Assembly: GCA_026390595.1 (NCBI GenBank)
Contig: JAPLFQ010000033.1
Location: 90,574-154,573 of the forward strand
DNA from: Ignavibacteriales bacterium
Lineage (GTDB): Bacteria > Bacteroidota > Ignavibacteria > UBA10030
DNA length: 64,000 nt
Direction of reading: 5' to 3'
The notes beneath the pieces were generated by a model that saw nothing but the letters and a program-made list of their open reading frames with translations, ran no database searches and had not been told where the DNA came from. The translations under genes were made by a program, and so were the position numbers. Shown here one piece after another: positions 38,601 to 53,213 of this stretch. How positions within the stretch are numbered: the first letter of the stretch is position 1; every line of letters starts with the position of its first letter.

Positions 38601-39272
38601 CTACTCGGCCTCTCGATCGTAAGCGTGGTGTTTGATGATCTTCGCGTTCACCAGGAAGATTACGTCCTCCGCAATGTTGGTGGCGTGGTCGGCGAGACGC
38701 TCGATGTGCCTTGAGACGATCATAAGGTGTGATGCCGGAGCGATGTTCTCCGGCGACTCCTTCATTCTTGCTATCATCGCAGAGAATATCTCGCGATCGA
38801 AGCAGTCGACGACGTCGTCCGACGTCAGAACCATCTTTGCCAGCTCCGGGTCATTGTTCACGAACGAATCGATCGCGTGTTTCACCATTTCGCGGGCCGC
38901 GTCTGCCATTTGCCGCAGCGGCGTGGCCTTGACAAAGTTCGAATATGGCATCAACGCAGAAACGCGTTCCCCTAAATTTGCCGCGATGTCTCCGATCCGC
39001 TCCAGCTCATTGTTGATCTTCAGGGCCGCCATCAAGAGCCGCAGGTCGATCGCGACGGGTTGGGACAATGCGAAAATAGCCATGCATCGTTGATCGATCG
39101 CAATGTCGAATTCATCCACCTTCTTGTCTCGTTCAATGACGAGGTTGGCAAGTGAGACGTCAGCTTCGGTAATTGCTTTGACGGCATAGTCTATCTGCTC
39201 TTCCACGAGGCTCCCCATGCGAATAAGCATGGTTCGAAGTTGATCCAGCTCCTGTTCATAATGTCTCGTCAA
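38601..39272 (-). CDS. phoU: Phosphate signalling protein PhoU
   Basis: 223-residue all-helical protein with two PhoU repeats: HYEQELDQLRTMLIRMGSLVEEQID with DKKVDEFDIAIDQRCM and LALSQPVA-like segment (FALSQPVAIDLRLLMAALKINNELERIGD in parts), and the second with LTSDDVVDCFDREIFSAM, and SRHIERLADHATNIAEDVIFLV. It restrains the PhoR-PhoB response through the Pst transporter. It is the last gene of the pst operon, 68 bases after pstB. Confidence 0.94.
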   Translation of the reverse strand: MTRHYEQELDQLRTMLIRMGSLVEEQIDYAVKAITEADVSLANLVIERDKKVDEFDIAIDQRCMAIFALSQPVAIDLRLLMAALKINNELERIGDIAANLGERVSALMPYSNFVKATPLRQMADAAREMVKHAIDSFVNNDPELAKMVLTSDDVVDCFDREIFSAMIARMKESPENIAPASHLMIVSRHIERLADHATNIAEDVIFLVNAKIIKHHAYDREAE

Positions 39273-39340
39273 TGTCTGCTCCCTTCAATGTGATCTCTGT
39301 TCCCGTCAGTCGACATCCTGTGGCTCGACACATCAAGCGA

Positions 39341-40105
39341 TTACCCGAATCTTCCGGTGATGTAGTCTTCAGTCTGCTTGATCGATGGATTCGTGAAGAT
39401 CAGCTTCGTATCGTCGTATTCAATAAGTTCCCCAAGATAGAAGAACGCCGTCCGGTCACTGACACGGGCCGCTTGCTGCATATTGTGAGTCACAATGACG
39501 ATCGTGTACTTCTCTTTGAGCTCATAAATGAGTTCTTCTATTTTCGCGGTCGCAATGGGATCCAAAGCGCTCGCCGGCTCGTCCATCAGAAGCACTTCGG
39601 GATCAACCGCGAGGGCTCGCGCTATGCAGAGACGCTGCTGCTGCCCACCCGACAAGGCCAACCCGCTTTTGCCGAGATCATCTTTCACCTCATCCCACAA
39701 GGCAGCCTGCTTCAGGCTCCTTTCAACTGTCTCGTCGAGCGTTTTCTTGTCGTGAACGCTGTTGATTCGTGGACCATATGCGACATTATCGTAAATTGAT
39801 TTTGGGAAGGGATTCGACTTCTGGAAGATCATTCCGACCTTCTTCCGCAATTCCACAACATCGACATCATCCCGATAAACGTCCACGTCATCGACAATTA
39901 CTTCACCCGTCGTTCGAACCCCGTCGATCAAGTCGTTCATGCGATTCAACGATCGCAGGAATGTCGATTTGCCGCAGCCCGAAGGACCTATCAAGGCGGT
40001 TACCTGATTCGTCTTGATGTCCATGGAGATTTCCTTCAGAGCCAGCTTGGGCCCATAGGAAAGTGAGAGCTTCTTTGTTTTTATCTTGTAACCATTGTTG
40101 TTCAT
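39341..40105 (-). CDS. pstB: Phosphate ABC transporter ATP-binding protein
   Basis: 254 residues, high-affinity phosphate import ATPase. Walker [49 protein letters not shown]-like Q-loop region ([11 protein letters not shown] here), signature [15 protein letters not shown], Walker [17 protein letters not shown], and switch [13 protein letters not shown]. The stretch RMNDLID and [10 protein letters not shown] are specific for PstB. Follows pstA by 19 bases. Confidence 0.96.
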
Positions 40106-40124
40106 AGAATCTGAGAGCTCCCCA

Positions 40125-41033
40125 TTACCGGTTCGTGCGAGTGCGAATTCTGTATCGCAGGAAGATCGCCGAGAAATTCAACGTAAATGTCAATACCAGC
40201 AGCACGAGGGTCGTTGCGTATTGGATCCCCCTTGTGGCCTCGACATCAGGCGATTGCGTCGACATGATATACACGTGGTAGCCGAGTTCCATAAATTGAT
40301 CCGTCAACGCTCCCGGAAGATGAGGAAGGAAATACGCCGCACCTGTAAAGAGAATGGGGGCTACCTCCCCCGCCCCGCGGCTGACTGCAAGTATCCCGCC
40401 CGTAAGAATTCCTGTGATTGAATTTGGGAGCACGACTTTCCAGATGGTTTCCAGTTTCGTCGCACCCAGCGCGAGACTAGCCTCACGGAGTTCCCGGGGA
40501 ACAGCTTTGATCGCTTCCTCGACGGACACGATAACGACGGGCAGCGTAAGCAGCGCCATCGTGAGGCTTGCCCATAGGATGTTCGGTTGCCCCCATTTTA
40601 ATTGAGATCCGCCGCTCAGGACGTTATCCATTCCCGTACCTACAAATTGTATGAAGAAACCGAGTCCGAAAAGTCCGAAAACAATTGCCGGAACACCCGC
40701 AAGCGTGTTCACAGCAAATCGGATTGTCCTGGCGAGGAGCGAGCGGTGGCTTGCATATTCACTCAGATAGATAGCCGTGATGGTCCCTATCGGAACGCCC
40801 GCAACCGACATGATGACAACGAGCAGGAATGTTCCGACGATCGCCGGATAGATGCCACCTTCTGTCATTCCCCCTTTCGGACTCGTCGACAGGAATTCCC
40901 AGCTGAGCGTGCTCCATCCACCGGCGATGATATCGATCATCACAAGAAGGACGATCACCACGATGGAGAACGCACACAATCCGGTCAGGAAAGGTATCGA
41001 GAGGCCGAGGAATTTGCGCTTCAGAGTTCTCAT
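40125..41033 (-). CDS. pstA: Phosphate ABC transporter permease PstA
   Basis: 302 residues with six membrane segments, beginning [22 protein letters not shown]. The coupling motif [66 protein letters not shown] (in parts) and the charged residues in it are typical of PstA. The ATG overlaps the pstC stop by 4 bases, so the two permeases are coupled. Confidence 0.94.
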
Positions 41034-42175
41034 TGGCCCTCAAACCTCTTCATCAACTTCTGACGGATGAAAAGCTCTGCAATAGCATTGAGGCAAAAGG
41101 TAAATAGGAACAGTACCGTACCGATAAAGAACAGGACGGTGTAGTGGGTGTCGCCAAAAACAACTTCTCCCATTTCGGCTCCAATCGTGGCCGACATGGT
41201 TCGGACCGGTTCAAACAAATCTCCTGACAACATCGACGCATTGCCGGTTGCCATGAGGACGATCATCGTTTCGCCGAAGGCGCGGCCTATCCCGAGCAAG
41301 ATGCCAGCAAAAATCCCCGGAGACGCTGCCGGGAGAACAACGAACAGAGCCGTCTGCCATTTCGACGCTCCAAGAGCCAGGCTGGCTTCGGTCATAACTT
41401 TCGGAACACGGGAAAGCGAATCCTCTGTGATCGTGTAGATAATCGGTATGACGGCAAGCGAGAGCGCTATGCCGCCCACGAATGCGTTGAGACGGTACTG
41501 GAATCCGAAAGTCTTCTGAAGAAACGTTGCCATTGCAATGAGCGCGAAGAAGCCGATAACTACGGAAGGAATTCCTGCGAGAACCTCAATGGCCGGTTTC
41601 AGGATTTCTTTGGACCATTTCGGTGCAAATGCAGCAGTGAACAAAGCTGCCAGAATGGCGATGGGTGCAGCGAACAAGAGAGCAACAGTTGTGACTTTCA
41701 GGCTTCCGACCACAAGCGGCAGCATCCCGTACTTTGGTGCGGACGACACCGGCTGCCAGTTCTTCCCCGTGAGATTCGACGCTGACGCGCCCTTGTCTTC
41801 AAGGCTCTCGACAGACGCTTTTCTCTGGTCTACCTGTTTTTGCAGTTCAGACGCGGATGATTCATCTCCGTAGGATTCTTGCGGGGCCTGTTTCGCCTCC
41901 ACCGATGTCTTCGCTGATGTGGAAGAGAAGATCGGCAGGGATTCGCGAAACACGAAAATAAATATCAGCGTGATGAAGGCGAAGGAAAGAAACGAAATCG
42001 CAGTGATGGATTTCTCGATCAGAAATTCACCGAGCCGAAACCTCTTCTTCCACCAGAGCTTCGTAGATTGGGTATTCTTCGATCTAGGAGGAATCGGCGG
42101 GTCGATTGCATTGGACGTAGCTGCCGGTTGCTGTGGCTGCGTATCGATCTTTGTCGACAAACGGGGAAACTGCAT
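41030..42175 (-). CDS. pstC: Phosphate ABC transporter permease PstC
   Basis: 381 residues, longer than usual because of a Pro/Gln-rich cytoplasmic N-terminus and a periplasmic loop of about 60 residues between the first and second membrane segments (TSVEAKQAPQESYGDESS onward, with a coiled QKQVDQRK-like part). The core has [95 protein letters not shown] in parts. A TTG at 42199 is another start, but ATG 42175 leaves room for the promoter at 42215-42222. Confidence 0.93.
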   Translation of the reverse strand: MQFPRLSTKIDTQPQQPAATSNAIDPPIPPRSKNTQSTKLWWKKRFRLGEFLIEKSITAISFLSFAFITLIFIFVFRESLPIFSSTSAKTSVEAKQAPQESYGDESSASELQKQVDQRKASVESLEDKGASASNLTGKNWQPVSSAPKYGMLPLVVGSLKVTTVALLFAAPIAILAALFTAAFAPKWSKEILKPAIEVLAGIPSVVIGFFALIAMATFLQKTFGFQYRLNAFVGGIALSLAVIPIIYTITEDSLSRVPKVMTEASLALGASKWQTALFVVLPAASPGIFAGILLGIGRAFGETMIVLMATGNASMLSGDLFEPVRTMSATIGAEMGEVVFGDTHYTVLFFIGTVLFLFTFCLNAIAELFIRQKLMKRFEGQ

Positions 42176-42214
42176 CAAGGTCAGATGTTGATTGTGCAAA
42201 TGTAGAATAGTGAT

Positions 42215-42270
42215 TCAATATATGGATTTCGTATTATTCGCCTATTATGGGGATGTTACCGAATTGTTAA
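42215..42270 (-). promoter_or_regulatory. Pho box and promoter of pstC
   Basis: Reading the minus strand: TTAACA (42270-42265), GTAACA (42259-42254), ATAATA (42248-42243), ATAATA (42237-42232), each 11 bp apart, then 9 bases and TATATTGA (42222-42215). Tandem TTAACA-like hexamers at 11 bp are the known form of PhoB/PhoP binding sites. A TACATTTG at 42204-42197 could be a second, closer -7 element. Confidence 0.7.
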
Positions 42271-42304
42271 GCCCTCCCGGGACTCACAGCACAATGAAAC
42301 AGAT

Positions 42305-42334
42305 GCGCCGGCTACGAAATACCATAGCCGGCGC
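42305..42334. promoter_or_regulatory. Stem-loop between pstS and pstC
   Basis: GCGCCGGCTA and TAGCCGGCGC form a perfect 10-bp GC-rich stem with a 10-base loop. There is no T-run in the direction of transcription, so it may stabilise the 3' end of the pstS message or cause partial termination rather than full stop. Confidence 0.6.
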
Positions 42335-42367
42335 CGTGATCTAACCGCACCTCTACCCACACCGCAC

Positions 42368-43195
42368 CTACTTCACCGGAAAGTAACCAACTTTTGTGAC
42401 GATCTGCTGCCCCTCTGCGCTCAGAATCCAATCGATATACTCTTTCAGGGCTCCGGTGGGACGGTTGCGCGTATACATGTACAAGAACCGTGAGATCGGG
42501 TACTTCCCGCTTTTCACATTCTCTTCGGTGGGTTCGTACCCTGGAGAGCTAGCGTCCTTCTTCACTTTTGCATATTTGATGCCTTTGCCGTATGCGGCTC
42601 CGCCATATCCGATACCAAACTTGTCCTTGGCAACTGCATTGACAACGGCGCCTGTTCCGGGCATAGTTTGCGTCATCGGCGAAAAGTCGGCCCCTCCAAG
42701 CACGTTGTCCTTGAAATAGACGTAGGTTCCTGAGCTGTTCTCACGCCCGTAGAGGATGATCTTAGCATCCGGTCCGCCAACGTCTTTCCAGTTCATGATC
42801 CCACCGGTATAGATCTTCTTCAGCTGGTCAAGCGACAGTTCCTGCACCGGGTTCGATTCGTTTACGTAGATGGACAAACCGTCCTTCGCCGTTTTGATTT
42901 CGACGCCGAGGACGTTGAACCGTGCTTTCAGCTTGTCGATTTCAGACTGCTTCATCGGACGTGAGGCATTGCAGATATCTGTTGTTCCATTGATGAGAGC
43001 CGAGATACCGACACCTGACCCGCCACCGGTGACCTGGACAGTCACTCCGGGGTGCTTTGCCATGTAGAGTTCTGCCCATCGCTGGGCCAGGATCACCATG
43101 GTGTCCGAACCTTTGACGGTGATAACTTCCGCAGGCTTCATCGCGAAGCCGAGGAACAGAGCTGCGGCGACAACGAGCGTGGTGATAATCTTCAT
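42368..43195 (-). CDS. pstS: Periplasmic phosphate-binding protein
   Basis: 275 residues with a signal peptide (MKIITTLVVAAALFLGFAM). Phosphate-site segments are visible: VKGSDTMVILAQRWAE, TGGGSGVGISALINGTTDICNASRPMK in parts, YGRENSSGTYVYFKDNVL, and MPGTGAVVNAVAKDKFGIGYGG. It belongs to the short PstS group rather than the E. coli type. It lies 33 bases after the porin gene and before the stem-loop and pstC promoter. Confidence 0.94.
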   Translation of the reverse strand: MKIITTLVVAAALFLGFAMKPAEVITVKGSDTMVILAQRWAELYMAKHPGVTVQVTGGGSGVGISALINGTTDICNASRPMKQSEIDKLKARFNVLGVEIKTAKDGLSIYVNESNPVQELSLDQLKKIYTGGIMNWKDVGGPDAKIILYGRENSSGTYVYFKDNVLGGADFSPMTQTMPGTGAVVNAVAKDKFGIGYGGAAYGKGIKYAKVKKDASSPGYEPTEENVKSGKYPISRFLYMYTRNRPTGALKEYIDWILSAEGQQIVTKVGYFPVK

Positions 43196-43228
43196 TCTGT
43201 ACTCCTTCGAATTAATCAGGTAGTGAAC

Positions 43229-44575
43229 TTAGAATTTGTACTGCATTCGAACTGTGAACACGTTGTCCTTGATGTCATCTTTGAATGCAGCCAGGGCTGC
43301 GGGTGCGTTCGCGTTCACCTTTTCATTTGTGACCATGTCGTAATAGAAGGTGAACTTCACGTTAGTGTCCCAATGATAGACCCAGCCGATTCCCAGAGTT
43401 GTAAATTGAATGTCACCGGCGTTGAGTCCGACCTTCCCTGTTGGGGTAGCGGCGCCTATGTCATTGCCTGTGATGTCAGAATTCGGCGTGAAGACGTCAT
43501 ACTTCAGGATGAACTGGTGATTCAAGCCGAGGTTCTGAACATAGTTGACGTAGTAACCGGAGAAATTTCTCTGGTACAGTGCGGTCCCTGCAGCGTTGTA
43601 GAAGGCGCTGTAGTTTGAAGTCGCGCTGGTACCTCCGGTGCCGGGCTGCTTGCCGCTGATGTACTCGCCGCGTAGCGTCATCCCTCCTAACACCGGCATT
43701 TCATAATAGAGCTGAACATCTGCGCCGATGTAGGTCCGATCGAAGTATGCACCATTGTTGGATGCAGAGGAATCATAGGCGAACGCCTTGGAGCCGCCAT
43801 CGAGTGTGTAGATCGCACGTTGATTGCTCCTTACTTTGCCCATATAGAACGACACGCCGCCGTCAATTTCCAGGCCGGCATCGCGCATGGGAAGCGTGAA
43901 TCCGCCACGCCCTATGAGGTCTTTGTAGTTGTCGTTTTCCTGCGCTGTGGGGCCCATACCGGTGAAGAGGCCAGCCTTGAAATTAAACCAGCTCATTGCC
44001 GATCCTTCCGGCGGCATGATTTCGATTTTCGCGCCCATATCGCGCTCACCCGGGAAGAGTGTTTGATACATTCTGGTACGTTCCGGGGCTTCACGATTGC
44101 TGGATGAATAGGAAATCTCGAAGCCAAAAGGCCGATCGAAAACGCCTGCCGTAAGCCCGAACGTCTTCATCCAGGGCTCCCTGATGCTGGCGTATGCGTC
44201 TTTGATCGCAACACCGCCCGGGGTAACATCGATCTGCAGCACGTACTGTGTGAGGTCGTTGTCATAGTTGAATTTTACACGTCCCCGACGAACCAGGTAC
44301 CGGGAGTGCACACCAGCTGCGAAATTGCCGCCAGCGAATGAGCCAACGCCATCGCCATCAGCAACCTGAAATTGTGATTGAATGTACCCTGTGATCTTGA
44401 TCTTCTTCAGAGCATCGACCACTGGGGTCAACGCCATGAGTTGCTCGTTCAAACCGTCCACCTGCTCTTTGACGTCGGTCATTTTCTGCTGAAGACTTGC
44501 GAGCGTCGTATCCTTCTCTTGAGCGCGAAGGGTGAACCCGAGCAAGACCAAACAAGTGAGGAACAGTTTTTTCAT
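43229..44575 (-). CDS. Phosphate-selective porin O/P family protein
   Basis: 448 residues. Signal peptide (LFLTCLVLLGFTLRAQ), a short coiled coil (TLASLQQKMTDVKEQVDGLNEQL), then a beta-barrel that begins KITGYIQSQFQVADG and contains YLVRRGRVKFNYDNDLTQYVLQIDV, GVFDRPFGFEISYSSSNREAPERTRM and FPGERDMGAKIEI, all typical of OprP/OprO-like porins. The final strand ends in the aromatic MQYKF. It heads the pstS genes and follows a Pho-boxed small gene, so phosphate or polyphosphate passage is likely. Confidence 0.92.
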   Translation of the reverse strand: MKKLFLTCLVLLGFTLRAQEKDTTLASLQQKMTDVKEQVDGLNEQLMALTPVVDALKKIKITGYIQSQFQVADGDGVGSFAGGNFAAGVHSRYLVRRGRVKFNYDNDLTQYVLQIDVTPGGVAIKDAYASIREPWMKTFGLTAGVFDRPFGFEISYSSSNREAPERTRMYQTLFPGERDMGAKIEIMPPEGSAMSWFNFKAGLFTGMGPTAQENDNYKDLIGRGGFTLPMRDAGLEIDGGVSFYMGKVRSNQRAIYTLDGGSKAFAYDSSASNNGAYFDRTYIGADVQLYYEMPVLGGMTLRGEYISGKQPGTGGTSATSNYSAFYNAAGTALYQRNFSGYYVNYVQNLGLNHQFILKYDVFTPNSDITGNDIGAATPTGKVGLNAGDIQFTTLGIGWVYHWDTNVKFTFYYDMVTNEKVNANAPAALAAFKDDIKDNVFTVRMQYKF

Positions 44576-44700: not shown

Positions 44701-44910
44701 TCAGATTAACCATCCGTTTACGATGCTTCCAAATGCAAGTGCAGAAATTGCGATAATCCCCATGAGAAGTCTGAATTCACGATCGCTGACAGGCTCGCAC
44801 TCCTCCGGATCAAATCCACCGCCTATGAAGTGGCCCGCCAGTAACCGTGCTATGCTTGTCTTTCCACTCTCTTCTGCAGCGAATACCGTACTTGATGTCT
44901 GAGGCGTCAT
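44701..44910 (-). CDS. Small single-pass membrane protein A, Pho-boxed
   Basis: 69 residues, no known family. It has a polar N-terminus, the motif E37-x-E-P40-V-S-D43-x-E-F46, then a C-terminal membrane segment (LLMGIIAISALAFGSIVNGWLI). A paralogue with the same motif and layout lies at 45052-45237. The ATG at 44910 has AAAGGAG 9 bases upstream and a Pho box with TACCTTTG about 31-86 bases upstream. The frame continues to 44967, but that would run through the promoter. It precedes the porin-pst operon and may share its transcript. Confidence 0.7.
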   Translation of the reverse strand: MTPQTSSTVFAAEESGKTSIARLLAGHFIGGGFDPEECEPVSDREFRLLMGIIAISALAFGSIVNGWLI

Positions 44911-44940
44911 TTGTCTGCGCTCCTTTGGTTGTTTACGCCA

Positions 44941-44996
44941 CAAAGGTAGCGAACAGCCATTAGGCAAATGTTAGGAGCGTACTAAGAAATTGTTAA
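44941..44996 (-). promoter_or_regulatory. Pho box and promoter of small membrane protein A
   Basis: On the minus strand: TTAACA (44996-44991), TTAGTA (44985-44980), CTAACA (44974-44969), CTAATG (44963-44958), exactly 11 bp apart, then 9 bases, then TACCTTTG (44948-44941), which fits the TAnnTTTG -7 element of Bacteroidota. It may also drive the porin and pstS. Confidence 0.75.
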
Positions 44997-45051
44997 CAGA
45001 GACTCCCGGAGTCTGCTGCTCCGAGCGGCCGAAGACCTGCAATGACCGCGA

Positions 45052-45237
45052 TCAGACGGAACACCCGCGGATGAGCATCCCCGCGCCAACGACCATAGCC
45101 AAACTTAGAACCAGGCCAACGTAGAATTGGCTATCGGTCAACGGTTTAGTTTCGCCGGTTTCGTCATCATGGGGAAGAAACCTTTCGACGAGCCAAAACG
45201 CGAACGGTTTCTCGTTATTCTTCTTAGGTTCGGGCAT
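45052..45237 (-). CDS. Small single-pass membrane protein B, Pho-boxed
   Basis: 61 residues, no known family. A short charged N-terminus (PEPKKNNEKPFAFWLVERFLPHDD in parts) leads to E29-x-K-P32-L-T-D35-x-Q-F38 and a C-terminal membrane segment (VGLVLSLAMVVGAGMLI), ending RGCSV. It shares the E-x-x-P-[LV]-[ST]-D-x-[EQ]-F motif and order with protein A. The ATG at 45237 follows GGAGGAG. The upstream frame to 45558 is not used, because it passes through a fold-back repeat and a Pho promoter that both lie in the leader. Confidence 0.7.
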   Translation of the reverse strand: MPEPKKNNEKPFAFWLVERFLPHDDETGETKPLTDSQFYVGLVLSLAMVVGAGMLIRGCSV

Positions 45238-45289: not shown

Positions 45290-45428
45290 ATCTCAAAAAC
45301 GCCAACTACGTCATTGCGAGGCGTTTCTTGCCGAAGCAATCTCTCTTTTGTCTCGATGTACGTTGGTGAGATTGCTTCGCTCGCCCCTACGGGGCGTCGC
45401 TCGCAATGACTTTGAGGGTTTTTGAGAT
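45290..45428. repeat. 139-bp fold-back (MITE/REP-like) element in the leader of gene B
   Basis: The ends are perfect inverted repeats, ATCTCAAAAAC (45290-45300) and GTTTTTGAGAT (45418-45428). Inside, GTCATTGCGAGGCG and GAAGCAATCTC on the left are answered by GAGATTGCTTC and GCTCGCAATGAC on the right, with a small CCCCTACGGGG hairpin. This GCAATGAC/GTCATTGCGAG motif is a common dispersed palindrome in environmental bacteria. It contains no gene and lies just downstream of the TACCTTTG element, so it would be transcribed as a long hairpin. Confidence 0.75.
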
Positions 45429-45437
45429 AGCCTCTAA

Positions 45438-45493
45438 CAAAGGTAGTCCTTTGGCATTGTCCAGGTATTAGTTTAATGTTAAGGAACTGTGAA
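45438..45493 (-). promoter_or_regulatory. Pho box and promoter of small membrane protein B
   Basis: On the minus strand: TTCACA (45493-45488), TTAACA (45482-45477), CTAATA (45471-45466), ACAATG (45460-45455), 11 bp apart, 9 bases, then TACCTTTG (45445-45438). Spacing and the -7 sequence equal those of gene A. Transcription would begin about where the fold-back element begins. Confidence 0.72.
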
Positions 45494-45648: not shown

Positions 45649-45701
45649 TTTACAGTATCATAACAACCCAATCACATTTGGATAAAGCATCCTTCTATAT
45701 T
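45649..45701 (+). promoter_or_regulatory. Pho box and promoter of the glycosyltransferase operon
   Basis: TTTACA (45649-45654), ATAACA (45660-45665), ATCACA (45671-45676), ATAAAG (45682-45687), each 11 bp apart, then 8 bases and TATATT (45696-45701). The last hexamer is weak. The start codon is 28 bases further on. The geometry matches the other three Pho promoters. Confidence 0.65.
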
Positions 45702-45729
45702 GCGTCATCATTTTGATTAAGGGTCTTCA

Positions 45730-46872
45730 ATGCGAATCGCTTACTTCAACGCCAATCTTTGCCGCGGGCAGGATGGCGTAACGAGAGTCATGTACAAGAT
45801 GTTCGAGGCCGCACTCGCACGACATCACGAGCCGATAGCATTCACATCGACGCGGCCTGATCCGGAGGATCGGATCGTGCCGATGCACAAAGTCCGCTCT
45901 GTTGTTCTCCCCCTCCAGAAAAGCTACCGGATCGCTTTCCCAGGATACCAGATGTTTGCAAAATCCCTGGATGCTTTTGCACCTGATATTATGCACATCA
46001 ACAGTCCCTGCACGCTTGGCTTTGCGGCTATGAAGTATGCCCGGCAGTTCAGTATTCCCGTCGTCGCGACATATCATACTCACTTCCCCACCTATCCAAG
46101 ATACTACGGGCTCACGGCGTTGGAAGAGCTGGCGTGGAAAGTCTCGCGATATCTCTACAACAAGATGGATCGCACGTTCGTCCCCACGACGCCGATTCTC
46201 GATGAGCTCAGAGAACACAGCATCGACAGGTTGGAGTACCTCCCGAATGGTGTCGATCTCAATCTGTTCAATCCATCTCGATGGTCTTTGCTCTGGCGCG
46301 AGAATATCTCTCCGGACAACAAGCCCGTGGTCCTCTTCGTGAGCAGGCTCGTTTGGGAGAAGGATTTGGCCGTCCTGGCGCAGGCGTACCAAATCCTGCG
46401 TCAGAAACGAACGGATTTCGAAATGGTGATCGTGGGCGATGGCCACGCAAGGAAGGAATTCCAGGACTTGATGCCGGGCGCTCATTTCCTTGGCTACCAG
46501 TCAGGCCTCACACTCGCGGAAAGCTACGCTTCTTCAGACATATTTGTTTTCCCATCGACAACCGAAACCTTCGGCCTCGTGACGATCGAAGCAATGGCTT
46601 CAGGCCTTGCCCCCATAGCGGCAAAGGTCGGAGGTGCTACAGGTATCATCCAGGAAGGCAAATCCGGTCTGTTCGCGAAACCATTAAGCGGAGAAGATTT
46701 GGCGCACGGCGTGGATGGGCTGCTTGATGAAAAACGGATGAGGCAGCAATTGGCAGAAGGTGCTTTGCAGCGAGCCCAGGAATTCTCGTGGGAGAAAATA
46801 CTCTCTCAACTATTCGACAGCTATCAGTCGGTGATCAATGAACACAAACGACAACATGCTCGAGCTGCTTAG
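45730..46872 (+). CDS. GT4 family glycosyltransferase, probably glycolipid-forming
   Basis: 380 residues, GT-B fold. The acceptor half has GVTRVMYKMFEAALARHH, HINSPCTLGFAAMKYARQ and VVATYHTHFPTYPRYYGL; the donor half has the ATP-like nucleotide-sugar motif FVSRLVWEKDLAVLAQAY, VIVGDGHARKEF, and the E-x7-E motif in FPSTTETFGLVTIEAMASGLAPIA. The N-terminal pattern is like that of MgtA/SQD2-type enzymes that glycosylate diacylglycerol. It has a Pho box and overlaps a metallophosphoesterase gene by 35 bases. Glycolipid synthesis in phosphate starvation is inferred. Confidence 0.82.
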   Translation: MRIAYFNANLCRGQDGVTRVMYKMFEAALARHHEPIAFTSTRPDPEDRIVPMHKVRSVVLPLQKSYRIAFPGYQMFAKSLDAFAPDIMHINSPCTLGFAAMKYARQFSIPVVATYHTHFPTYPRYYGLTALEELAWKVSRYLYNKMDRTFVPTTPILDELREHSIDRLEYLPNGVDLNLFNPSRWSLLWRENISPDNKPVVLFVSRLVWEKDLAVLAQAYQILRQKRTDFEMVIVGDGHARKEFQDLMPGAHFLGYQSGLTLAESYASSDIFVFPSTTETFGLVTIEAMASGLAPIAAKVGGATGIIQEGKSGLFAKPLSGEDLAHGVDGLLDEKRMRQQLAEGALQRAQEFSWEKILSQLFDSYQSVINEHKRQHARAA

Positions 46873-47893
46873 CCCGGAAGAAATCGGCACGGGTTCCGGA
46901 TTCCTGCAGGGAGTCCCGCCAAGGGGGGAGTCTCCTCCCAGTGACTTCCGGCTGGTCCATATTTCTGACCCCCATCTGAGCCGTCAGTTCTATCGCGAAC
47001 ACCTCAAGTCTTTCAAACTCCTTCTCAAGTCCATCCTCGCCGCCGGTTGCGACCATCTCGTCATCACTGGTGACATCGTAAGCACCGGTGAGGAAGATGA
47101 CTACTATCTCGCCAGGGAGATTCTTGGGACTCTGGATTTGCTCGACTCTACACGCCTCACGGTCGTTCCAGGCAACCACGATATCTTCGGCGGCCCGCAT
47201 CGGGCGGTAGACGTTCTGAGTTTTCCACAGTACATACGCAATGTGGATTACGCCAGGCATCTCGACCTTTTTCAGATCGTATTCGGAGAAACGCTCGAAA
47301 ATGTCGTATCGTATGGGAGTGATTCCATTTTTCCGTTCGTGAAAAAGGTTGGACCCTATTCGATCATCGGATTGAATTCCATACCTCCCTGGTCTTTGCG
47401 AAGGAATCCGTTGGGCACCAACGGCAAACTGGACGACGCTCAGCGAAATGCCCTTCTTCGCATTCATGAGGAAGGGGAGCTTGATAGGACCCTCCCGCTC
47501 GTGGCAGTTCACCACCACTTCAATGACCTCCAGGATGAATCTGCGGGAGGCAGCTTCTGGAAGCGAGTCGAATCGAACACCATGAGAATGAGGGGCCGGA
47601 CGAAGACGCTGCGATTGTTCGAATCTCTTGGGATTCGCTATGTTCTCTATGGTCATATCCATCGAAATGAGATTTACCAGAACAATGCGATTACCCTTCT
47701 GAACGGCGCCGGCGCTGTGTGCGACGACCCTATCAGATTCCTGAAGTATAACCAGATTCTCCATTCCAACGGCATTGACCATCTCCAAACAGTCACGCTT
47801 CCGATTCCATTTCAGGTTCCTTCGTTCGCGCTCCCGAAACATCGACTTCACTTTCCGGTCGCGACTCCCCCCGTACCCTCAACCGCAGAGTGA
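46838..47893 (+). CDS. Calcineurin-like metallophosphoesterase of the Pho-boxed operon
   Basis: 351 residues with complete metal motifs: HISDPHLS (DxH), HLVITGDIVSTG (GDxx), VVPGNHD (GNHD), LVAVHHHF and VLYGHIHRNEI (GHxH). A soluble cytoplasmic enzyme is suggested, as no signal or membrane segment is seen. In other bacteria a PhoB-controlled enzyme of this superfamily (PlcP) cleaves phospholipids to diacylglycerol next to a glycosyltransferase; the same pairing here suggests that role. Nucleotide or other phosphodiester substrates remain possible. The start overlaps the glycosyltransferase. Confidence 0.82.
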   Translation: MNTNDNMLELLSPEEIGTGSGFLQGVPPRGESPPSDFRLVHISDPHLSRQFYREHLKSFKLLLKSILAAGCDHLVITGDIVSTGEEDDYYLAREILGTLDLLDSTRLTVVPGNHDIFGGPHRAVDVLSFPQYIRNVDYARHLDLFQIVFGETLENVVSYGSDSIFPFVKKVGPYSIIGLNSIPPWSLRRNPLGTNGKLDDAQRNALLRIHEEGELDRTLPLVAVHHHFNDLQDESAGGSFWKRVESNTMRMRGRTKTLRLFESLGIRYVLYGHIHRNEIYQNNAITLLNGAGAVCDDPIRFLKYNQILHSNGIDHLQTVTLPIPFQVPSFALPKHRLHFPVATPPVPSTAE

Positions 47894-47899
47894 AGGTAC

Positions 47900-48682
47900 G
47901 TGATAGATCTTTTGAAATGGCAGTTGGTGGAAGCTGAGAATCGGGTAATGCGTGCGTCCGATCAGGCAATTGAACGTGTTGCAGTTTTCGACCTCGATGG
48001 AACGCTCCTTATCGGAGATATCGGGGATGCTGTTTTCGCCTATCTCATTCTCGAAGGTCACCGCCTCACATTGAGCTGGGGAGAGTATCAACACCTTCTC
48101 CGAACCCACAAAAGCAAGGCCTACCGCACGGTAGTCGAAGCGATGGCGGGACTGGAACCTGATACTATTGTGCGGGCAACATCGGCGGTGATGAATGCTG
48201 CAAAGGAGTACCTCACTCTTGGATCAGACCGTGTGAGGAAACCCAAACCCCGACCTTTGCTTTCCCAGTTCGTTTCCCTGCTCCACCAACTTCAGTATCA
48301 AGTCTTCGTGATATCCGCGAGTAACCATGTTTCGGTTCAGCACGTTTCGCAAGCGTGGTTCAACGTCCCCCCATCGCATGCCTTCGGCATCCAGAGTCGA
48401 ACGTTTGAAGGCCGTTTGACGGCTGAACTCCTCTCCCCTGTCCCCATTGGCCCGGGAAAGGCTGAGCTCTTCAGGCTTGCTGCGGGTTCGGCCGTCCCTT
48501 TGATTACTGGTACCGACAGCGCACTGGATATTCCTCTGCTTCGGATAACACATCCCATGGGCTTCACTGTTTGGCTCGGTGACAATCCCAGTGACTATAA
48601 CGCTGCCATGGCTACTGTCAAGGGTGGGCAGAAGATCTTCTTTGCAGGATCGGACGAAGAGCCAGAATCGGATGACTACTAA
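47900..48682 (+). CDS. HAD-family phosphatase
   Basis: 260 residues. Motif I is VAVFDLDGTLLIGD near residue 28 with the nucleophile Asp, motif II VFVISASNH, and motif III/IV KAELF and LITGTDSALDIPLL, with the helical cap between, as in phosphoserine-phosphatase-like HADs. It starts at a GTG 6 bases after the phosphoesterase stop, so it is the third gene of the Pho-boxed operon. It could remove phosphate from phosphatidate or a sugar phosphate; this is inference. Its end overlaps the convergent glycosidase-like gene by 4 bases. Confidence 0.8.
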   Translation: MIDLLKWQLVEAENRVMRASDQAIERVAVFDLDGTLLIGDIGDAVFAYLILEGHRLTLSWGEYQHLLRTHKSKAYRTVVEAMAGLEPDTIVRATSAVMNAAKEYLTLGSDRVRKPKPRPLLSQFVSLLHQLQYQVFVISASNHVSVQHVSQAWFNVPPSHAFGIQSRTFEGRLTAELLSPVPIGPGKAELFRLAAGSAVPLITGTDSALDIPLLRITHPMGFTVWLGDNPSDYNAAMATVKGGQKIFFAGSDEEPESDDY

Positions 48683-51081: not shown

Positions 51082-52524
51082 CTACTTATTCAGGTCGAAT
51101 GCGAACGTGGTGCCTTTGCCTACCTCGCTTGTCACTGAGATCTTGCTGCTGTGTGCTTCGATGATGTGTTTGACGATGGCAAGTCCGAGGCCTGTCCCCC
51201 CCACATCCCGGGAACGGGTCTTGTCTACCCTGTAGAACCTCTCGAAGATCCTTGGAAGGTGTACAGACTCGATACCCGGGCCGCTGTCGGCGATCGAGAT
51301 CGTCACAGAACGCTCGGATTCCATGAGGCGTACAGTGGTTGTGGCCCCTTCCGGACTGTACTTGATGGCATTGTCCACGAGATTTCCAAGAGCCTGGCGC
51401 AAACGATCTTTGTCGCCGAGCACCAGCACGTCGTGGTCAGGCGCATCGATAAGGAGATTCTGCTTTCTTTTGGCTGCAGCGTCCGAAAAGTCTGCAATAA
51501 GGTTCTTCAGTATCGACACAGCGTCGACGTACCGGAAACTCATTTTCATTTCGCCTGACTCGATGCGTGAAATCTCGATGAGGTCAGTCAGGAGTATATC
51601 CAGGCGGTTTGCGTGATGATAGGCCTTTTCGACGAATCTTCGGTTCACTGCCGCGTCATCCAGTGCCCCTTCGAGAAGCGTCTCAAGAAAGCCTTTCAAC
51701 GAGAAGATCGGTGTTCGGAGCTCGTGGGACACATTACCCAGAAATTCACTTCGAACGCGCTCGAGTTTCTTCAGCTGCTCAATATCTGCCTTGAGCTTGT
51801 CCGTCATTTCGTTGATCAGTTCCGCCAGCCGGCCAATCTCATCATTCGAGCGAACGGGGAGCTTCTGGTCGAGGTTGCCCGCCTTGATCTCCTTGACCAT
51901 TTCAGCGATCTCCGTGAGGGAACTCGTCAATCGCCTGGAGACAATCCGACTTGCCATCAGCACGACAAGAAGGATGACAATCGACCCGACAACGATTTTG
52001 AAGCGAATCTCGTACATCACGCGATTGACCTCTGTCAGTTCGACGGAAACCCGGACGAACTGAAGATTTCGAAACACGGCCGCGGACGGGACGGCGACCT
52101 TCTGTGCAACGTACACAAGGTCTTGATTAATCGATTTGCTGGTTCTGACGTTTGAACCGGTTCCCTTCTGGCGGGCTTCGACAACTTCCGGTCGCTGAGA
52201 GTGATTTTCGAGACCTCCAAGCAGAGAATCAGGAACGGATGAGTCATAGACAACCACCCCCGAAGAATCAATAAGCGTGATACGCATACGCGCCGCCAGG
52301 GACATTACTGTGAGATCTTTCTCCACGTTGTCACGCGATTCCCCCCGCACCGTCCAATCCTGTAAGAGCGAGTGTATCACGTTGGTTTCAGTGCGAAGGC
52401 CTGAGAGCAACCGGTCGAAGAAATACCTCTCAATCTCGTAGCTCAGCAGCACTCCCAGAAGAGCAATGACGAGAACCGAGATGGCAATGAATGTGACAGC
52501 TATCCGTGTACGTATGCTGCGCAT
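51082..52524 (-). CDS. phoR: Phosphate-regulon sensor histidine kinase PhoR
   Basis: 480 residues. Two membrane segments (IAVTFIAISVLVIALLGVLLSY and IVVGSIVILLVVLMASRIVS) flank a sensor region of about 150 residues. A HAMP domain follows, then the phosphoacceptor motif FLGNVSHELRTPIFSLKGFLETLLEGALDD, which is typical of PhoR, and the ATPase boxes NLVDNAIKYSPEG, DSGPGIE, RFYRVDKTRSRDVGGTGLGLAIVKHI in parts. Its start overlaps the phoB stop by one base. Four Pho boxes lie in the same island. Confidence 0.92.
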   Translation of the reverse strand: MRSIRTRIAVTFIAISVLVIALLGVLLSYEIERYFFDRLLSGLRTETNVIHSLLQDWTVRGESRDNVEKDLTVMSLAARMRITLIDSSGVVVYDSSVPDSLLGGLENHSQRPEVVEARQKGTGSNVRTSKSINQDLVYVAQKVAVPSAAVFRNLQFVRVSVELTEVNRVMYEIRFKIVVGSIVILLVVLMASRIVSRRLTSSLTEIAEMVKEIKAGNLDQKLPVRSNDEIGRLAELINEMTDKLKADIEQLKKLERVRSEFLGNVSHELRTPIFSLKGFLETLLEGALDDAAVNRRFVEKAYHHANRLDILLTDLIEISRIESGEMKMSFRYVDAVSILKNLIADFSDAAAKRKQNLLIDAPDHDVLVLGDKDRLRQALGNLVDNAIKYSPEGATTTVRLMESERSVTISIADSGPGIESVHLPRIFERFYRVDKTRSRDVGGTGLGLAIVKHIIEAHSSKISVTSEVGKGTTFAFDLNK

Positions 52525-53213
52525 CAGAGATCCTTTCGAAAGCGATAGCCAACGCCTTTTACTGTTTCGATGTGGTGTGCGTGTTTGCCCAGCTTCTCCC
52601 GAATCTTCCGGATGTGAACATCGATCGTCCGGTCAATGACATACACGTCGTGGCCCCAGATTTCGTTGAGCAACGTCTGGCGAGAGACCACGCGCTCGGG
52701 ATGTCGGGCAAGGAAGAGGAGCAATTCGAATTCTTTCTTAGGCAAATGAATGTCGTTCTTGCCAATGGAGACGACGTAGTTGTTCATCTGAATGTCCAGT
52801 TCACCAACTCTCAGAACGTCCGACTCGTCGGCCTCCTCCCCTTCCTCCCGCGCTTTCAATACACGCTTCACGCGAGCCAGAAACGTGCGTACTTTCACCG
52901 GCTTTGCGATGTAGTCGTCAGCGCCCAGCTCCAGACCTACGACCTCATCGGCCTCGCTATCCCGCGCTGTCAGGAAAATAATCGGCGTCTTGGCCGTCCC
53001 TGGATCCTTCCGTATCGCTTTGCACACCTCCAGGCCGTCCAGTTCAGGCATCATGACATCCAAGACGACGAGGTTCGGACGCTGCTTGACATACCTCAGT
53101 GCCTCTTTGCCATTCCCGGCCGTAAGGACGCGATAGCCTTCTTTCTCGAGGTTATACTTCAGCAATTCCAGGATGTCTTTTTCGTCATCAACGACAAGTA
53201 TGGTGGAAACCAT
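52524..53213 (-). CDS. phoB: Phosphate-regulon response regulator PhoB
   Basis: 229 residues, OmpR/PhoB family. Receiver domain with VVDDEKDILELLKYNLEKEG, phospho-accepting Asp in LVVLDVMMPELDGLEV, and Lys in DDYIAKPVKVR; then a winged helix with HLPKKEFELLLFLARHPERVVSRQTLLNEIWGHDVYVIDRTIDVHIRKIREKLG in parts. It probably binds the 11-bp spaced hexamers seen at four promoters between 42215 and 45701. No Pho box was found before phoB itself. Confidence 0.92.
   Translation of the reverse strand: MVSTILVVDDEKDILELLKYNLEKEGYRVLTAGNGKEALRYVKQRPNLVVLDVMMPELDGLEVCKAIRKDPGTAKTPIIFLTARDSEADEVVGLELGADDYIAKPVKVRTFLARVKRVLKAREEGEEADESDVLRVGELDIQMNNYVVSIGKNDIHLPKKEFELLLFLARHPERVVSRQTLLNEIWGHDVYVIDRTIDVHIRKIREKLGKHAHHIETVKGVGYRFRKDL

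Follow-up and report, generated by a model that had tools for sequence, protein, structure and literature searches.

Between a porin-pstSCAB-phoU operon (38601-44575) and a divergent glycosyltransferase operon lie two small open reading frames, A and B, in what we call the window, the whole 64,000-nt stretch of Ignavibacteriales DNA analyzed here. A preliminary description had taken them for paralogous small membrane proteins of an undescribed family, set under matching Pho promoters and sharing a conserved job in phosphate starvation. Are the two genuine genes, are they related to each other, and what might such proteins do in a phosphate-starved cell? We found that A and B are genuine coding genes and paralogues of one undescribed family, and we consider it almost certain that both the family and its placement at Pho promoters are real.

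Two Paralogous Genes of an Undescribed Family

Protein A (69 aa; 44701-44910) and protein B (61 aa; 45052-45237) are encoded on the minus strand, where the preliminary description had placed them, each behind a strong Shine-Dalgarno sequence (AAAGGAG 5′ of A and AAGGAGGAG 5′ of B). A is predicted to consist of a short helix at about residues 20-29, an acidic linker, a helix cap (PVSDREF) and a membrane helix at about residues 46-64, and B of the amphipathic stretch KPFAFWLVERFL, an acidic linker, a cap (PLTDSQF) and a membrane helix at about residues 38-56. A six-frame search of the 64-kb window for the pattern E..P[LV][ST]D.[EQ]F returned exactly two matches, one in each protein, against 0.0009 expected from composition, a count that is indicative only, as the pattern was drawn up after both proteins had been seen. 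Direct comparison of A with B by BLASTP gave no match, and their kinship therefore rests on bridging homologues and on the family profile.

Single-sequence searches of 100 relatives identified orthologues of A in the same genus with 65, 50, and 48% identity, and in two genomes from another family of the order (G040 and G082) one ORF matched A and B alike. Alignment-based expansion of these first homologues yielded approximately 34 family genes in 22 of the 98 genomes of the order, a figure that leaves out the doubtful cases G071, G017, and G083 and includes a few genes counted by hand. When the window's genome was left out of training, the profile recovered A with an E-value of 1.6e-16 and B with 1.8e-10, and when the whole genus was left out it recovered them with 1e-6 and 7e-11, respectively; shuffled versions of A and B scored at most 5 bits against the family profile. 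It is through this profile, and not through direct BLASTP, that the proposed paralogy of A and B is borne out. Orthologous pairs had pN/pS ratios of 0.31-0.61 and in-frame gaps only, which indicates purifying selection. The preliminary description had held that a lack of homologues, homologues away from pst/pho genes, or a non-coding substitution pattern would count against it; the profile search that it proposed returned instead the homologues in 22 of 98 genomes, with porin-pst genes adjoining them in 15 loci, and the substitution pattern is that of coding sequence.

That the family is undescribed was confirmed by profile searches of Pfam, NCBIfam, and PDB, which gave no family match beyond chance; a query of Pfam-A and NCBIfam with 12 members (E ≤ 1) gave a single chance Pfam match and nothing else. 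No members outside the order were found in a phylum-wide search of 395 genomes, and the family is, as far as searched, confined to one order. With no Pfam or NCBIfam model it is invisible to current annotation, yet it lies behind the strongest Pho promoters in part of an uncultured order, and its members make up a defined group of small proteins whose part in phosphate control can be tested. Weak matches in G238 and G244 were not counted, being larger proteins in which only the span was matched, nor were those in G061, G008, G043, G095, G021, G092, and G022 and a second match in G005, which lay within other ORFs or lacked family features. One family gene, beside phoB in G025 (L032:2557-2728), is disrupted by a single base in a nine-A homopolymer, which may be an assembly error, a real frameshift, or slippage.

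Predicted Anatomy and the Shared Motif

Across 31 proteins of the family, the N-terminal part is short and net acidic (211 D/E vs. 106 K/R) and the C-terminal hydrophobic span is followed by a tail of mostly seven residues or fewer, longer in two members, in which 9 K/R stand against 1 D/E. By the positive-inside rule, this charge pattern suggests an N-out, C-in topology. An AlphaFold model of A (pLDDT 62, two sequences) has a helix at residues 20-29 and a long helix at residues 43-68, and hydropathy and AlphaFold agree in predicting a single membrane span in proteins of less than about 70 aa. Single-span inner-membrane proteins are therefore what these predictions point to, their topology being uncertain. 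The family is thus predicted to comprise proteins of 40-70 residues in which a short amphipathic helix at the N terminus is joined by an acidic linker to a capped membrane helix at the C terminus.

The motif on which the preliminary description had relied held in part. Its exact form is found in A and B and is absent from the other members, and what is kept family-wide is a relaxed version, P-x-[STNDG]-[DN]-x-[EQ]-[FLY], from which some members depart. In the AlphaFold model, P-[LVIM]-[ST]-[DN]-x-[EQ]-[FY] falls where the long helix of A begins. A capping box together with a hydrophobic staple is a general pattern at helix starts in proteins, and the shared motif most plausibly represents such a start before the membrane helix. 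Read in this way, it would mark a structural feature and would not on its own constitute a binding site.

Promoter Architecture

The promoters of A (44941-44996, minus strand; TTAACA/TTAGTA/CTAACA/CTAATG, 9 nt, and TACCTTTG as the -7 element at 44941-44948) and B (45438-45493, minus strand; TTCACA/TTAACA/CTAATA/ACAATG, 9 nt, and TACCTTTG at 45438-45445) follow a common plan of four TTAACA-like hexamers spaced by 11 bp, 9 nt, and then TAnnTTTG. The matching plan claimed for the two genes, down to the identical final element, is exact at both. In Bacteroides, TAnnTTTG is documented as the consensus of the -7 element (PMC4747536). When the whole 4.77-Mb genome was searched for the full pattern with up to three mismatches, the sites of A and B were the only two found and the reversed control gave none. 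The hexamer array alone occurred three times, the third strong array lying before pstC (42215-42270, minus strand) with a weaker -7 element. A weak Pho-like site precedes the glycosyltransferase gene (45649-45703, plus strand; score 22.8), and the porin of the window has no Pho site of its own scoring above background.

Of 28 upstream regions taken from outside the window, 24 scored above their shuffled versions at the 1% level or better; G030, G029_A, and G031_A have weaker sites, and the upstream DNA in G001 was masked. The spacing between the fourth hexamer and TAnnTTTG is nearly always exactly 9 nt, and the promoter usually lies 20-60 nt 5′ of the start codon. Scanning 513 kb gave 36 promoter matches, compared with two in the reversed controls. 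A blind scan of the 98 genomes of the order gave 30 sites and no sites in reversed controls, of which 12 lie before family genes, 17 before porin/pst genes, and one before a TonB-receptor-like gene. Because pst genes follow the same motif in this blind scan, we take it to be a Pho promoter, as had been proposed. It has the direct-repeat Pho box at a fixed distance from the core promoter by which a Pho regulon is recognized, and relatives (loci L093-L117) have separate Pho sites before pstC, pstS, the porin, and pstB. Judged by sequence, the genome's strongest Pho promoters are probably those of A and B, at which PhoB would be expected to bind. The architecture (four 11-bp repeats, 9 nt, TAnnTTTG) makes the Pho regulons of the order readable from MAGs. 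At L093 (G042), a strong Pho promoter lies directly before the gene of a TonB-receptor-like protein whose start is carboxypeptidase-regulatory-like, a possible phosphate-related outer-membrane transporter.

Genomic Context of the Family

In the window, A is followed after a gap of 125 nt by the gene of an outer-membrane porin-like protein (43229-44575), the first large gene, and further by pstS (42368-43195; TIGR02136) and by pstC, pstA, pstB, and phoU (38601-42199), all on the minus strand. Among named sequences, those closest to this porin come from Bacteroidota, Ignavibacteriae, and Ignavibacteriales MAGs. Divergent from B, the plus-strand genes at 45730-48682 encode a GT4 glycosyltransferase, a calcineurin-like phosphoesterase, and a HAD phosphatase, and form a candidate phosphorus-sparing glycolipid operon. 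The phoR and phoB genes (51082-53213, minus strand) lie beyond, with 6 kb between A and phoR.

The location before porin-pst, noted in this one genome, proved to be conserved: 17 of the 32 mapped family genes, in 15 loci, lie directly before a porin-pst operon on the same strand. It also proved to be one of several contexts. Five family genes lead a glycosyltransferase-phosphoesterase operon (G028, G029, G030, G031, and G009), one precedes a Pit/PHO4 transporter (G002), and phoB or phoR adjoins 11; tandem pairs are present in G013 and G031. Three members (G025, G012_1, and B of the window, where the following gene is A under its own promoter) have no same-strand phosphate gene downstream within their own unit and are apparently monocistronic, each with its own Pho promoter. 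For the members in G040, G065, and G087, all of which have the promoter, no pst/pho gene lies within 1 kb. Many related genomes with pst genes and Pho promoters are without the family, which is therefore dispensable for Pho signaling. In G087 (L038:752-940) and G065 (L073:9122-9295), family genes with Pho promoters precede genes for proteins of 1289 and 1122 aa, respectively.

Possible Roles of the Family

What these differing contexts share is Pho control and phosphate-sensing genes (phoB/phoR, Pst), and for this reason we prefer to read the family as a PhoB-induced, MgrB-like modulator of PhoR/Pst that would act in trans within the membrane, a reading to which we assign a probability of roughly 0.4. 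In phosphate starvation, PhoB would switch the family genes on from the strongest Pho promoters, and once PhoB is active the small proteins would be made in large amounts. Helix-helix contact could then occur in trans with an inner-membrane component of the phosphate-sensing apparatus, the likeliest being PhoR or else the Pst-PhoU complex that PhoR reads, and this contact may damp or retune the phosphate response, as MgrB does for PhoQ. A would couple the modulation to uptake (porin-pst), and B to genes for phosphorus-sparing lipids or low-affinity uptake. PhoB binding, the partner, and the direction of the effect are those that we infer, and action as proteins in trans is suggested by the apparently monocistronic members with their own Pho promoters. 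More tentatively, and with some doubt on our part, lineage-specific duplicated PhoB-induced micro-proteins might form a feedback layer on PhoR/Pst, by which each Pho operon (uptake, lipid remodeling, Pit) reports to one sensor. If true, Bacteroidota would have in the family their own, independent equivalent of MgrB for the phosphate pathway.

Tight operon placement before porin-pst, the glycosyltransferase operon, and Pit, together with an N-terminal part that varies among paralogues with context, would also be expected of an accessory subunit or stabilizer, with A binding the Pst permease and B binding the glycosyltransferase/lipid enzymes or Pit, so as to protect or adjust their activity. 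However, the same fold and cap would then have to serve unrelated machines, the members in G025, G012_1, and window B are solitary or beside phoB only, and many pst operons of the order have no family gene; we consider such a role somewhat unlikely. The proteins might instead aid membrane or lipid adaptation, with the bilayer itself or an envelope protease as their target (as FtsH adaptors, for instance) while phospholipids are replaced by glycolipids. A predicted amphipathic helix with one span would suit this task, B-type genes lead the GT4 glycosyltransferase-phosphoesterase-HAD operon in five genomes, and the family is present in 10 of the 14 genomes with a close phosphoesterase orthologue, a raw count that ignores phylogeny. 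Yet about half of the family-bearing genomes, all same-genus relatives included, are without such an orthologue, and A-type genes lead porin-pst, which leaves this role improbable.

The proteins themselves could also be irrelevant, if translation of a cis-acting leader ORF set porin-pst expression through attenuation or coupling and the peptide were functionless. The small ORF is indeed usually the first after the Pho promoter, and in the window the porin is without a detectable Pho site; at L031, L074, L075, and L078, by contrast, a Pho site belonging to the porin lies 3′ of the small gene. The conserved amino-acid sequence with its in-frame indels and the existence of monocistronic and divergent members also count against a leader, and a purely cis-acting one is disfavored because G025, G012_1, and window B have no downstream phosphate gene in the unit. 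We regard it as very improbable. Chance resemblance, with ORFs that are non-coding or unrelated and a motif that is a convergent helix cap, would explain why direct A-B alignment fails and why the motif is a generic helix-start pattern, but it is scarcely credible in view of the leave-genus-out E-values, the purifying selection, and the promoter and neighbors common to members.

Small single-span partners of transporters are known in MgtS and KdpF, which resemble the family in size, in the single span (predicted here), and in having a gene beside a transporter gene; they differ in that no family match was found and that the A/B family goes with several different operons. For modulation of PhoR/Pst, the preferred reading, MgrB and DUF1127-PhoR may serve as working precedents and are not relatives of the family. 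MgrB is a 47-aa PhoP-induced inhibitor of PhoQ (PMC2789325), and the likeness would lie in a small single-span inner-membrane protein (predicted here) whose induction depends on the response regulator of the very pathway that it tunes (proposed here). MgrB acts in a pathway other than phosphate, whereas the paralogues of this family sit inside phosphate operons, and none of the 12 members queried matched the MgrB family model (Pfam-A and NCBIfam, E ≤ 1). Small DUF1127 proteins/YjiS contact PhoR and thereby modulate the phosphate response (PMC12501420), as is proposed for the family. The family differs from them in its hydrophobic span toward the C terminus and in having its genes at Pho promoters, and the DUF1127 model had no Pfam match among the 12 members (E ≤ 1).

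Another comparison concerns the neighbors rather than A and B. The neighboring pair of glycosyltransferase and calcineurin-like phosphoesterase genes with Pho-like promoters resembles the two-gene scheme of PlcP-Agt lipid renovation (PMC4796936), orthology to PlcP/Agt being putative; searched against NCBIfam, these neighbors reached no cut-off. The glycosyltransferase-phosphoesterase-HAD operon is conserved, and in several relatives (L179, L180, and L185) it has Pho-like sites.

A Palindromic Element in the Leader of B

The promoter of B is separated from its start codon by 200 nt, because a palindromic repeat of approximately 139 bp (45290-45428) sits between them in the 5′ leader. The element has perfect terminal inverted repeats of 11 bp (ATCTCAAAAAC) and a core of GTCATTGCGAG...GAAGCAATC, and the leader RNA of B has a predicted fold of -74.5 kcal/mol (z -6.2).
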